Shown here: positions 847 through 15,535 of the stretch, in pieces | Layout of the letters: the number at the start of each line of letters is the position of its first letter | Position numbering within the stretch: the stretch's first letter is position 1 | NCBI GenBank assembly: GCA_036674765.1 | Contig: JARVKI010000207.1 | Location: forward strand, 1-15,535 | DNA from: Seiridium cupressi | Taxonomy: Eukaryota; Ascomycota; Sordariomycetes; Amphisphaeriales; Sporocadaceae | Length of the DNA: 15,535 nt | Direction of reading: 5' to 3' | Program-made: the position numbers and the translations under genes | The notes under the pieces: generated by a model | Told to the model about the DNA's origin: nothing | The model's database searches: none | What the model saw: the letters and a program-made list of their open reading frames with translations, nothing else

Positions 847-1133
847 TCAGCCCCGTAGCCACAACCAAACCCAATGCGGCCAACTGACACCATCGATTTC
901 GTTGACGGTGCGCGTAGAGACTTTCTTGAGAAAGGCGATGTCAAAATCACAAGCCTCGGCTGTCATAGAGTCCGTAGTCGCAACGGCGTGAAGAATGATC
1001 ATGTAACGCTCCTGGCGTTTGTCGCCCTGGTGTCAAGAGCTGCATATGCTTGGCCGATGTTGTTATATAAGCCGGCCTAATTGATCATGCTGATAAAGAT
1101 GATGCCTGCCTTCCCTGCTATCTCAACATTTTT

Positions 1134-1280
1134 CTACATCAAATCAAGATTAGTGGTTTCTCTTACGAATAGATTCTAAAAGCTTTGAAATGCGTTTTAG
1201 GCGTGTTCTGCTTCCGAAAGAGTAATCCCAGTCCAGCAACACGCAAAAGGAGATACCGAGGGACTCAATATTGTACGTAC
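1134..1280 (-). repeat. 147-nt intron of GUA1 pseudogene, homologous to polygalacturonase intron 2
   Basis: On the minus strand the intron begins GTACGTAC at 1280 and ends TTGATTTGATGTAG at 1134, with a branch-like CACTAATC about 20 nt before the acceptor. Removing it joins GEVTK to KNVEIA in frame (phase 0) with no residue gained or lost relative to the family pattern, which fixes the boundaries. Its length equals that of the intron at 4563-4709. Ungapped alignment gives 87 of 147 identities overall and 42 of 57 at the 3' end. It is likely an introner-like element. Confidence 0.8.
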
Positions 1281-1333
1281 TTTGGTGACCTCGCCAATAA
1301 TGCGGCTTACTATTCCAGGGCCCAGGAAAGGGT

Positions 1334-1495
1334 CTGGGGAAAAAAAGTAAAGCTAATGTCTCAATCCCGATCGTGTACGAAGTGCTAAGGGTAGTGCAGA
1401 TAGTCAGGCGCAATAGAGATGATCAAGCTTGCTATCGGAACAAGCCCATTCGGACGTGACACGCATGGGACAATTCAACATGTTTTTGTACTTAC
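1334..1495 (-). other. 162-nt intron of the GUA1 pseudogene
   Basis: The donor GTAAGT lies at 1495-1490 on the minus strand. The acceptor CCCCAG ends at 1334 after a strong pyrimidine tract (CTTTACTTTTTTTCC). Splicing joins GLVMRR-type sequence to a HP-F-GPG-I block that belongs to the ATP-pyrophosphatase/dimerisation boundary of GMP synthase. It shows no clear similarity to the two 147-nt introns. Confidence 0.65.
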
Positions 1496-1631
1496 GTCTC
1501 ATGACGAGCCCTTCATTGATCTTCATCTCACGACCGAGGCTTCGCACCTCATCTTTGAAGCTCTCTAAGGGACTCAATGAGCTTCAGGCCTTGCCCATCC
1601 ATCATTCGCTGCGGCAACCCACCGACATTAT

Positions 1632-1680
1632 CCATATGACCTTAGTCTAGGCCCAACTAGAGAGATTGAATTAGACTCAC
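1632..1680 (-). other. 49-nt GUA1 intron with damaged acceptor
   Basis: The donor GTGAGT at 1680-1675 follows TIKTH. Coding resumes at 1631 with NVGGLPQR. The expected acceptor dinucleotide reads GG (CATATGG) instead of AG. The size is typical of fungal introns, so the acceptor loss is probably one of the pseudogene's lesions. Confidence 0.65.
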
Positions 1681-2793
1681 GGTGTGTCTTGATAGTAGAG
1701 GAGTGGCCTTTGAAAAAGATGGCTTTAATGACATCCGGATAGAGGGTGCCCTGGAGGAACCACTGCACACTTCCTGTATTCGGTATGTTTTCGACGGCCT
1801 TCTCGATTTCGATAGCCTCCTCCTCGAACACGTCAATGAAGGTGTGCCGATAAACTTGCGCTTCTTTTCGGCGCCCTTGACACCCTTCAAGCCCTACAGG
1901 AGGCTCCGAGGCATCTACGATTGTGAGATCGATGCCGAGGTGCTCCTGTAGCGTTTTTCTTGACCTGACGACACTCGTCGAGGCGCATATCACCTGGTCT
2001 ACGAGTACGGCGTGGCATCAGTCGCCAGTGGGTTCCTTCAAGAGCCTCGCGGCGACGGAGGAGTCGACACCGCCAGAGACAGCACCAATGATATGTCCTC
2101 TGTCACCAACAAGGTTTCGGATTTGGATCATCTCTCGGCCAATGAACTTGGACATCTTCCGGTTTTGCTGTGCGCCGCAGATGCTGACAGCGGAGTTCTT
2201 CAGCAATTCGGTGCCGCGAAGAGTGTGGGCGACTTCCGGGTGGAACTGGATGCCGTAAATGTGCCTGGTCTCATGTGTTATGCCGGTATATGGTGAGTTT
2301 TGGGTGGTGGCAATGGTGATAAATCTATTGGGTAGCTGGCTGGGTTTACCGTCATGACTCATCCACACCTGCAAGCTATCATCTTGCAAACCCTCGAACA
2401 ACTTATCGGTCGGGCTGTTGTGTCGCTGGGCCATAAGATCCTGGCAGACGGTCAGCTCATGATATTATGAATAAGCGATATGTTAGCGCATAGTATGACC
2501 GAATGTATGGTCGGTGTCGGCATTGACATTGTCCTTGGACAACCTCCATGCTATCTCTTGTAGGCCATAGCATATTCCCAAGATTGGCACGCCAAGGTCA
2601 ATGAATGCAAGGTCCACGTGTTGGGGGGGGTTGGGGGTTCGTGGTCATAGACGGAGTATGGGTATGTCAAAGTCAGTAGGCAAGACCGCGCAAGAAAGCA
2701 CAACGCACACTAACCGCCAGATAGAATGACTCCCTTCGGCTTGAAGCTCAGCTCAGAGAGATTGGTGGTGCTCGGGAGCATTTCACTGTACAC

Positions 2794-2840
2794 CTTGTGA
2801 GAATCTTTCGAACCGTCACATTCGCCTATAAGGTCCCTAC
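2794..2840 (-). other. 47-nt intron of the GUA1 pseudogene
   Basis: The donor GTAGGG begins at 2840 after LRELN and the acceptor CACAAG ends at 2794 before VYSEMLP. Splicing restores the LNVYSEMLP junction that is conserved in fungal GMP synthases. The splice sites look intact. Confidence 0.7.
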
Positions 2841-3108
2841 ATTGAGCTCTCGCAGCCGGCGCGTGATGAGATGCATGACTTGTGAGCCGAAGTCCAAAGT
2901 TAGGATAGCTTAGAAAACCAAGACGAAGCTGGTCAGCGACCAGCCGGCGAGTTTCTGCGTCGTAGTCACTCGCAATGACTAGGTTACCAAACTCGAGTCG
3001 CAATTTTTTTACGTTTATTTTCAAAGACCCGATAGAAGAGGGAGTTAGGCTCCTTACCCCGATCAACTCCACCACCTTTTTGACTCCCGTACATATATCA
3101 TATCCATC

Positions 3109-4341
3109 ATGTCTGCCGCTATTGAACAGGCTGAGGCGCCTCACAAGGCCTAGGATGTTAGTTCAGCTTTCTTTGGGTGTCGGAGGGGTCACGACCATAA
3201 ATTTTTATCGAGCTGCTTATCATTGTTGGGTTGACTCAAATCGCCCGCAAGGAAACGTGGAGTCCTGGAAGTATGTATTTTTGAAAACCTACCTCAAGAC
3301 ATTGCACGACATTCTCTGTTGGGCTTCTAGGCACGTGGCCATAGTGAGCCCATCGGGCGACCCTTGGCTCTCATATACTCATCTTCATTCCACTCTCTTT
3401 GGCTCTTGTGCGTGACATTCTCCTCTTATATATTATTTCATCACTTTGTCTGTTTGATATTGTATACTCTATCTGGGTATCGGTTATTAATATATATCTA
3501 TTTTATCTTTCCCATCTTTTATTTCTTCTTTCCTTCCTTCTTCTTTTTCGTCCTTTTTAGAACGCCGCAGCTTTAAGTTAACGGAACATGGTATAATACG
3601 ACCTGCACGACATTACCTTACGCCGAATCCAGGCGTAACTTCAGCAAGGATCCACTCCAGTTTACCACGGCTGCAGTGGGACGATACGCACCACGTCTAT
3701 ATTTGTCTCTATACGCTCATGTCGACGTGATGGCATCGTAACGAGAAGACTACTACGATCCAAGAGATCCAGAGCACTTTGTTACTCCGTATGGGCCCCA
3801 GGGCGAATGTCGCCTTCCTGCATGGACGAGAATTTAAATGCTGAGATACATTCAACTGTCAGACAATACATCTATCGCAGGGACGTTCCCATGCCAATCC
3901 ATATCAAACACATATCCACACTATGCACACCCGGTCTTGATTATGGACTAAGATAAAGCGGGAGAGGGAGAGAACGCGGTTTGCTTAGTCCAATGGCTTG
4001 GTGACCTTCCACTTGAAGCAATAATTAATCGCGGGAGGTGAAGCCGCGGGGTTTGCAAATGCGAATAGGAATACCATATCTAGCAACCAACTGAAGATTG
4101 TCGCCGGACGGAAGTCCTGTCCCAATTTACCAGTTACTGGCGAATCATTGTATTACCATGCTATACAGCAGTTCAAATATGGAACATTTAGCTGGGACAT
4201 GTCATTCTGGAGCAGGGACGATTCGCAGCTCCTAACCTGTACACAGACTGCGACTAATTAGTTGGGAATGCAAGCTATGTAAACGAATATATACAGGGGT
4301 ACTCTACGACATGAAGTATACATCTCCTCTCGGCGACCCGC
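3109..4341. other. Intergenic region between GUA1 remnant and polygalacturonase
   Basis: No gene is recognised. A pyrimidine-rich plus-strand tract (about 3410-3560, mostly C/T with TATA-like stretches) resembles fungal promoter DNA, but no convincing plus-strand gene follows it. A 15-codon frame at 3109-3153 (+) starts ATG in a good context but ends at TAG. The part from about 3577 to 4341 is plain unique-looking sequence downstream of the polygalacturonase stop. Confidence 0.45.
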
Positions 4342-5677
4342 TTAGCTTGGGCATCCAGAGGCAGGGTAGTTGCAGGTTTGATTGCCACCCGTGATCTCAA
4401 CATTCTCGTATGAGAAGTTAGTGCAGCTACCGTCACCGCACAGAACATAGTAGTTGTACGCATCATCACCAGAGACCGTCCCCGTCACGTCGATGAAACT
4501 GATGTTGGCAATCAAGACACCGTTGGTAGGCTCCCCAGTGGGGCCGCCGTTGAGGTAGTCCTCTACATCAAATCAGGGTCAGTAATTACTCTTGCGGATA
4601 GGTTCTGGGGGTTCTGAAACAGGTCTCAGGAGTATCAGCCCTCAGGGCGTTGTTATCAAGCTCAGAAAGACGCTCAGAGAGGCGAGAGAGGAGCCAAGAA
4701 GGTACGTACGCTGCACATCGATACCGTAATCAGTGATACCGCTCATAGTGATGTTCTTGTAGGTGATATTGTACACCTCGCCGGTAGTGTTAGAGTTGGA
4801 CTTGATGCGGCAGCCATTGCTGGAGTCTACCAGCACGCTGTTGCTGAAAATGACTCCGTCGACGGTGTTGTCACTCTTGCCGCCGATGGAGCCGATGGAG
4901 AGACCGTGCCCACCGTTGCAGTACACATTGTCCACGACGACGTTGGTGCCGCTAGTGACGGCAACGCAGTCATCCTGGTTGATGACCCTGGTGTTCAGGA
5001 TGGAGACATTATCGCTGGTCGACACGCCAAAACCATCGCTGTTGTGAGCGGCAGCCAGGCCATCCGAAATATCGTTGGGCTCGAAGCCAGCACTGTTGTC
5101 CATGTTCAAGCCGTCGATGGTGACGCCGCTGCTGCCAGTGATCTGGATGTTGTGCACAGGCCAGTTGACGATGTGAAGGTTCGTGACAGACGACTCATAC
5201 ACGTTTGAGAGCTTCAGGAACCAGTTGGGCTTGGAGCTGCCGCCGTTGGAGCCCAGGCCGTCCCAGTACGCGGCTCCATTGCCCTCGATCACGTGGCCCT
5301 CGGCTCCCGTGATGGTCAGGTCCGAACCCGAGACCTTGATAGGGATGAAGTCGTGGTCGGCGGTGGTGCCGAACGTCTGAGGCAAGTGTCAGTTCTCGCT
5401 TCCGGCAGACAATCGGGGATTCATGTAGGCTAGTTACCGTGTTGCCGGCAAAAGTCACGGTGGTGCCGTTCTGCAGGCTGGTGAGATCAATGCTCGAGTT
5501 GGCTGGGGCGAATATGTTCTCGAGGACAATGTCCGTGCAACTAGCGACAGCTGAGGCAATGGCCGAGTAGCTTGTGACGGTGCAAGTTGCCGGAGCGGTG
5601 TCGTTCACACTCCTGCATGGGGTAGCAGCACGAGCGGCAGCTAGCAGCGCGGCCAGAGCTACGGTAGAGGAGCGCAT
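4342..5677 (-). CDS. Secreted endopolygalacturonase, GH28
   Basis: This gene should hydrolyse alpha-1,4-galacturonosyl bonds in plant pectin outside the cell. Exons are 5677-5438, 5376-4710 and 4562-4342, joined by introns of 61 and 147 nt, giving 375 residues, the usual size for the family. Residues 1 to about 18 form a signal peptide (MRSSTVALAALLAAARA). The GH28 active-site set is present: NSD at 192-194, DD at 215-216, GHG with His237, RIK with Arg270 and Lys272, and Tyr297 in DYGI. Paired cysteines near the C-terminus (CGDGSC and CNYPASGC) match the family's disulfides. Several N-x-S/T sites suggest glycosylation. The first motif reads NSD where NTD is usual; the catalytic Asp is kept. 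Splice signals are canonical, with branch-like ACTGAC before each acceptor. All key residues are intact, so it should be active. Endo rather than exo action is inferred from overall similarity. Confidence 0.95.
4563..4709 (-). repeat. 147-nt intron 2 of polygalacturonase, homologous to a GUA1-pseudogene intron
   Basis: On the minus strand it begins GTACGTAC at 4709 and ends CTGATTTGATGTAG at 4563, with a TACTGACC branch region. It splits a glutamine codon (phase 1), joining GIDVQ to QDYLNGG. It contains a small perfect hairpin (GCCCTGAGGGC). Its length and both ends match the intron at 1134-1280 in an unrelated gene. Confidence 0.85.
5377..5437 (-). other. 61-nt intron 1 of polygalacturonase
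   Basis: The donor GTAACT starts at 5437 and the acceptor TGCCTCAG ends at 5377, with GAACTGACAC as branch region. Removal joins GNT to TFGTTADHDF in phase 0, as the GH28 family requires. It is unlike intron 2. Confidence 0.85.
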
Positions 5678-11220: not shown

Positions 11221-11333
11221 GGATGGATGGCCGAGCGGTCTAAGGCGCTGCACTCAAGTCTCTGACTTCTTCATTGAAAATGAGGTGATTTGCAGTCTAG
11301 TAATAGGCGTGGGTTCGAATCCCACTCCATTCA
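11221..11333 (+). tRNA. tL(CAA): tRNA-Leu(CAA) with 31-nt intron
   Basis: It folds as a class II tRNA. The acceptor stem GGATGGA pairs with TCCATTC, with one G-U wobble and discriminator A at 11333. The D stem is GCC/GGC. The anticodon stem CTGCA (11248-11252) pairs with TGCAG (11291-11295), with anticodon CAA at 11255-11257. A 31-nt intron (11259-11289) lies one base 3' of the anticodon. The variable arm is 13 nt with a short CTA/TAG stem, and the T stem GTGGG/CCCAC encloses TTCGAAT. Internal promoters are visible as box A (TGGCCGAGCGGT, 11228-11239) and box B (GGTTCGAATCC, 11312-11322). TTTTT at 11334-11338 is the polymerase III terminator. It looks functional. Confidence 0.95.
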
Positions 11334-12975: not shown

Positions 12976-13037
12976 CTGCAAATTACCTCATTTTCAATGA
13001 AGAAGTCAGAGACTTGAGTGCAGCGCCTTAGACCGCT
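12976..13037 (-). pseudogene. Truncated tRNA-Leu(CAA) copy, including the intron
   Basis: These 62 bp match positions 11234-11295 of the intact tRNA-Leu gene in reverse orientation with a single mismatch (a G to A change in the intron, six bases before the 3' anticodon stem). The fragment starts inside the D arm and ends exactly at the 3' end of the anticodon stem, so it lacks the acceptor stem, variable arm and T arm. Box A is cut and box B is absent, so it should not be transcribed as a tRNA. The intron is kept, so it derives from DNA or unspliced precursor. Confidence 0.9.

Positions 13038-15462: not shown

Positions 15463-15535
<73 letters not shown>
15463..15535. repeat. Terminal poly-G tract (probable artefact)
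   Basis: Seventy-three G close the window. The length is almost the same as that of the 72-C run at the start, which fits an assembler's k-mer limit better than biology. Confidence 0.85.

Follow-up and report, generated by a model that had tools for sequence, protein, structure and literature searches.

The origin of new spliceosomal introns is an old open question, to which the ascomycete carriers offer few handles, since they show no transposon footprint. The introner-like elements (ILEs) of Fulvia fulva and Zymoseptoria tritici are described, in the accessible part of their account (PMC4457414), as near-identical spliceosomal introns of unrelated genes with both young and degenerated members, and for fungi a route through an RNA intermediate has already been proposed, as far as the available text of the sources goes (PMC3443670, PMC8469720, PMC9860276). 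A similarly composed family is carried by Seiridium cupressi, in which the window analysed here, i.e., the whole stretch of 15,535 nucleotides (nt) of the contig JARVKI010000207.1 (assembly GCA_036674765.1), contains two 147-nt introns, one in a gene of GH28 endopolygalacturonase and another in a GMP synthase (GUA1)-like pseudogene, which almost certainly belong to one introner family. The preliminary description of the window had compared this pair with the Dothideomycete ILEs; the comparison holds as to an introner-like family, but as an analogy only, because Seiridium cupressi belongs to the Sordariomycetes (Amphisphaeriales, Sporocadaceae). Unlike the ILEs, reported as stably folded in the accessible text (PMC3443670), the Seiridium family is found in another class and without a supported stable structure. 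Altogether, the family is with good confidence an introner of about 147 nt multiplied in the Seiridium cupressi genome, with a short target word and probably with an RNA intermediate.

Both introns lie on the minus strand at the positions collected in Table 1 and, as had been described, each is 147 nt long, beginning with GTACGTAC and ending with TGATTTGATGTAG; the ungapped identity of 87/147, with 15/20 at the 5' end and 42/57 at the 3' end, was reproduced on recomputation. With gaps allowed, the local score of the pair was 43 versus a mean of 15.5 (standard deviation 2.2, maximum 32) in 2000 dinucleotide shuffles, and the global score was 32 versus a maximum of -3 in as many shuffles. The likeness does not come from gene kinship, as had been argued already: the reading frames bear out phase 0 in the GUA1-like pseudogene and phase 1 in the polygalacturonase gene, the 60-nt exon flanks of the two introns have no sustained match, the similarity ending at the splice sites, and the examined paralogues lack the intron. 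The idea of a diverged pair of one family was right about the family, but the two members are not equally diverged, one being young and the other old. The young polygalacturonase intron carries a branch-point-like CTGAC, the A of which lies at 17 nt from the 3' end. The old GUA1-like intron has 62% identity to the young consensus and 65% to its best other copy, and it reached 77 bits (E 1.2e-22) with the sequence-only model R1, in whose training set it was included.

When the genome was searched with both introns, as the preliminary description had proposed, the GUA1-like copy matched only itself as a BLAST query, while the polygalacturonase copy produced 28 rows at 27 places of its own 45.4-Mb genome, itself included. 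Twenty of these rows, counting the query, span positions 1-147 (at least five introns alike over the full width to both splice sites make an introner), and the other 19 full-length ones are 80-93% identical to the query. With the majority consensus as query 31 rows were obtained, and the pattern searches gave 23 matches for a 26-nt 3' pattern (up to 3 mismatches) versus 0 for the reversed pattern, and 139 versus 64 for a 15-nt pattern of the 3' end (up to 2 mismatches). The alignment A1 of 22 copies, 21 of them with both ends, has a mean column identity of 87%, and the sequence-only model built from it gave 43 matches in 41 sources (179,797 bases; weakest E = 2e-3), of which 22 are the training copies that match by construction and 21 are new; 5 extra copies in this search lie in the flanks of selected loci. 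The claim of a genome-wide family is borne out by 44 profile matches in 41 stretches (E <= 1.6e-5), the profile having been trained on 43 of those matches, and the reversed-sequence control of the profile returned a single row with E = 5. No copy was present in 16 sources of 80,231 bases, which include 60 kb at preset places, and the exact family pattern had 0 matches in viral contigs. Thus, where the lack of further copies and of a significant score had been named as speaking against the family, copies were found in the genome and the shuffles were beaten. Beyond the 44 matches, an old copy used as query led to one further copy, an old relative on contig C137 (another old query led to no new place), and therefore the family is layered and the copy count is a lower bound.

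The copies above 110 bits with the profile trained on these same copies are called young, and they comprise 22 with both ends plus L020, the 5' end of which is replaced; identity among the 231 pairs of young copies has its median at 89% and does not exceed 98%. The junction counts use 38 delimited copies, 22 young and 16 old, six of the 44 matches (L020, L032, L047 twice, L038 at 3715 and L024 at 4021) having been removed for missing, cut or replaced ends, and L068, a later find with the site G|G, stands outside all counts. The delimited copies are exact GT-to-AG units of 128-168 nt, and the length of the young ones is 146-150 nt in 20 cases and 135 and 168 nt in the remaining two. The young copies mostly read GTAYGTAC...TGATTTGATGTAG, the 21 A1 copies with an intact 5' end start with GTAY or GTCC, and a branch-point-like CTRAY has its A at -17 in 29/38 copies and is present within the last 50 nt in 35/38. 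The reading frame was picked by length, and at least for L013 the choice is wrong, a different frame giving the better fit; in 37 of the 38 copies the chosen frame closes within the intron and continues after its removal (it is open in L036), with phases 0, 1 and 2 in 15, 13 and 10 copies, respectively. In 19/22 young copies the sense strand offers a longer spanning frame than the antisense strand, with the exceptions of L013, L014 and L023, the last of which, 14 nt before an ATG, lies probably in a 5' leader.

The host genes are unrelated not only in the window pair, as had been claimed, but also, for the most part, across the family according to the PDB and Pfam assignments. The young copies reside in genes of polygalacturonase, photolyase, chitin synthase, class II aldolase, hydroxyacid oxidase, pectate lyase, a flavin adenine dinucleotide (FAD) enzyme, a sugar transporter, a HET protein and a TPR protein, and in three MFS-like transporter genes (L015, L018, L028) that are below the Pfam cut-off; the old ones reside in genes of homoaconitase (two copies in one gene), amidophosphoribosyltransferase, multicopper oxidase, a membrane transporter and a deaminase-like protein. 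Of the 20 fragments scanned, 9 had no Pfam match.

The insertion is seamless wherever the junctions were checked. No gap is seen at the junction in protein alignments of seven genes with their PDB relatives, namely, photolyase, chitin synthase, class II aldolase, hydroxyacid oxidase, homoaconitase (a weak match, E 6e-6), amidophosphoribosyltransferase and polygalacturonase, the exon length being unchanged. In the latter, the junction residues VQ|QDYLNGG run unbroken through PDB 1hg8, the C53 paralogue that lacks the intron and the NCBI model P0001, and a paralogue with the same residues reads GTACAACAAGAC, the intron-bearing gene reading GTGCAGC|AGGAC. The comparison of both host genes of the window for the presence of the intron, which the preliminary description had called for, was made with paralogues within the same genome and does not polarise gain versus loss on a tree: the polygalacturonase paralogues on C53, C131 and C8 have no introner intron, and the apparently intact GUA1 gene on C38 has no intron at the corresponding place, with equal exon length. 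The GUA1-like pseudogene is a decayed second copy, with 276/392 positions identical to the C38 copy in the longest, gapped DNA alignment. As for a target-site duplication (TSD), in 19/22 young copies neither flanking exon repeats even one base of the intron end; 1 nt is repeated in L014 and in L016, and 1 and 3 nt in L017. The words common to both flanks are no longer than in shuffles.

The sites are strongly biased. C|A is the site in 19/22 young copies (p about 1e-19 versus 6.9% CA expected; the others are C|G in L014, A|G in L016 and G|G in L017), in 7/16 old copies (p 5e-5; young versus old, Fisher 0.012) and in 0/15 candidate ordinary introns (Fisher 9e-8), which are predictions by signal and frame in the fetched stretches rather than annotated introns. 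Given C|A, the letters C, T, A at -4, -3, -2 and T at +2 are more frequent than at 448 other CA sites (p = 1e-4), this being the best of 256 words, and the intron ends, in its last six nt (AUGUAG), with the reverse complement of this wider target, CTAC|AT. Since ordinary splicing is not known to need C before or A after the intron, and the old copies show the bias more weakly, C|A looks like a preference that acts at insertion and is then gradually lost.

In the proposed mechanism, a complete spliceosomal intron would multiply, each landing in a gene creating a new intron. The mobile form may be the excised intron RNA, put seamlessly into transcribed genes by reverse splicing into a transcript with subsequent reverse transcription and gene conversion or, alternatively, by ligation of the RNA into a DNA break, and CTAC|AT would be favoured by the insertion machinery or by the RNA itself, perhaps through pairing with its 3' end AUGUAG. 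The exact intron unit, the lack of a footprint and of a clear intergenic or antisense young copy are what an RNA intermediate predicts, and a spread by the RNA route is moderately favoured. There are several considerations that weigh on the other side. The gene and sense placement could reflect selection, not mechanism, and nine young copies (L010, L012, L013, L017, L019, L021, L022, L026, L029) are assigned to genes by open frame alone; splicing of the copies is likewise deduced from the frame, homology and an NCBI gene model. The C|A site differs from the classical proto-splice site AG|G, and for the sharp target a DNA recombinase is no worse an explanation than reverse splicing. The sample of 60 kb mentioned above contained no copy. 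Finally, a shared stable RNA structure, which the preliminary description had proposed to look for in the pair, obtained no covariation support, 91, 178, 73, 161 and 65 of 500 shuffles reaching the five observed values, and the folding z-scores ranged from +1.19 to -2.04 across 12 copies.

Pairing of the ends was nevertheless frequent among the young copies, nt 2-6 pairing fully with the five before the last nt in 19/22 of them versus 4/16 old copies and 0/15 ordinary introns. When the pairing of own ends was compared with that of swapped ends, p was 0.26 (young), 0.15 (old) and 0.013 (all). In a 17-pair structure 83.9% of the cells were paired versus 30-45% when it was slid, and no covariation measure beat the shuffles. 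A more specific form of the RNA route is a guide-like introner, the excised AUGUAG of which would pair over six bases with CTAC|AT and direct a seamless insertion in the middle of the word. If true, it would be a sequence-directed intron transposition, unlike the random placement reported for related fungi or the TSD-making transposons, but it is rather improbable. The base at +3 is G in 13/22 young copies and does not continue the pairing with the intron end, and among the old copies the wider word is not apparent.

The rival that survives best, tentative as it is, is a non-autonomous DNA transposon with both splice sites in its unit, whose recombinase would read (S)TAC(R)T at the ends and in the target and leave no TSD; only copies within genes and in sense would be seen since the others were lost or are yet to be found. 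The sharpness of the target site agrees with it, as does the resemblance among the inverted last six nt (CTACAT), the first six (GTACGT) and the target (CTACAT), and introners of other groups mostly fit DNA transposition in the accessible text of the 2022 survey (PMC9860276). However, a TSD is absent, and an extended terminal inverted repeat (TIR) is also absent in the eight copies examined, the inverted matches of the ends being of 5-6 nt only; the end symmetry of the consensus has p = 0.058. Among the matches there is no relative larger than the copies themselves. Moreover, no clear case of a position outside a gene or of an antisense orientation was met among the 23 young copies, nine of them being judged by open frame alone, although a search at the DNA level needs no splicing. 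The RNA route is still preferred here to DNA transposition. Ordinary gene duplication or gene conversion among intron-bearing relatives is very improbable as the source of the copies: several hosts do belong to families, such as MFS transporters and polygalacturonases, but the hosts of known family are mostly unrelated, the phases vary, the exon flanks are unrelated and the examined polygalacturonase and GUA1 paralogues have no intron, which refutes it for the examined copies. Convergence or splice-signal constraint, suggested by the splice signals at both ends and the mere 59% identity of the window pair, has practically no chance, being refuted by 19 other full-length copies 80-93% identical and alignable end to end, with reversed controls empty or at E = 5.

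Table 1. Introner copies and their host genes in the window (positions of the forward strand)
Feature	Position	Strand	Remarks
Young introner copy	4563..4709	minus	phase 1 intron of the GH28 endopolygalacturonase gene; site CAGC|AGG
Old diverged introner copy	1134..1280	minus	phase 0 intron of the GMP synthase (GUA1)-like pseudogene
GH28 endopolygalacturonase host gene	4345..5677	minus	375 amino acids once spliced
Ordinary intron of the polygalacturonase gene	5377-5437	minus	61 nt
GUA1-like pseudogene, matching part	883..2113	minus	contains stops; GMP synthase C-terminal domain match at 883-1032; similar in DNA to the C38 copy as far as 2113

The best protein match of the polygalacturonase is from Seiridium cupressi, 97% identical across 98% of the query; the NCBI model P0001 has a longer N-terminus, differing from the start used in Table 1. 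Some individual copies of the family have peculiarities of their own. A young and an old copy are only 36 nt apart in L025 (1818-1964 and 2001-2148), probably in one gene, and other close pairs, probably in one gene each, are found in L040 (1557-1698 and 2001-2147) and L049 (1680-1802 and 1872-2015). L031 (2001-2168) has a poly-T tract inside the copy, the 5' half of L032 is rearranged, and the replaced 5' end of L020 is a new GTAAGG donor, with the site ATT|AAT. Near 2147 of L037 (minus), the preceding exon ends in gtacgtac, so that GTAC stands four times running and the true donor is ambiguous. Elsewhere in the window, a gene of transfer RNA (tRNA) at 11221-11333 was found by Rfam (RF00005, 47 bits) and none by ARAGORN with bacterial settings; having 113 nt versus 71 positions of the model, it is probably intron-bearing, and a 62-nt stretch of it is repeated inverted at 12976-13037, 1.7 kb off, with 98% identity. 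The contig is capped by the homopolymers of 72 C (1-72) and 73 G (15463-15535), probably an assembly artefact.

Among the intron families comparable with that of Seiridium are those of the Hypoxylaceae and Xylariaceae, which belong to the Xylariomycetidae, the same subclass as Seiridium. Their sister stwintrons and cropped sister introns are, in the accessible parts of the two accounts, inserted seamlessly and without TSD, as the Seiridium copies are (PMC8469720, PMC12403724), and most young Seiridium copies can pair near their ends with the terminal Gs left free, similarly to some Xylaria stwintrons in the part of the latter account available (PMC12403724). This stem is a resemblance only, because the copies share ancestry and the covariation is not above shuffles. 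In contrast to the sister stwintrons, which are twin introns with an internal intron nested in them, the Seiridium copies are not of the twin type: they start with GUACGU, not GGU, and their consensus has no long TIR or TTTCTAGAAA palindrome; the GGU start was found in none of the 21 A1 copies, internal introns not having been searched for. The Seiridium sites are strongly biased, whereas the Hypoxylaceae/Xylariaceae family is reported, in the accessible text, to insert randomly and without exon bias (PMC12403724), and the sharp target thus complicates the RNA reading. With the ascomycete introners of Gozashti et al. 2022, as far as that survey is accessible (PMC9860276), the family shares direct insertion and the lack of TSD and TIR; the survey reports a general motif and GC bias and may hold a case like the C|A / CTAC|AT preference. 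The DNA-transposon introners of Micromonas and others have, in the available parts of the sources, TSDs and/or TIRs, a splice site being often co-opted (PMC9860276, PMC12403724). Both these and the Seiridium copies are intron-generating repeats, but the Seiridium unit holds both splice sites and no TSD was found. No paper joining Seiridium, genome and introner, or Seiridium cupressi and a genome assembly, was found among the papers searched, most subscription journals and all supplements being outside the search, and no description of the C|A / CTAC|AT preference was encountered in the accessible text of published introner accounts, the motif figures of the 2022 survey being likewise outside it. 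Ascomycete introners are already known, and new here is the C|A / CTAC|AT preference as seen in the young copies versus the old copies and ordinary introns; the young copies and their sharp exon target word make the mechanism of intron gain testable, including the action on the target at the RNA or DNA level.

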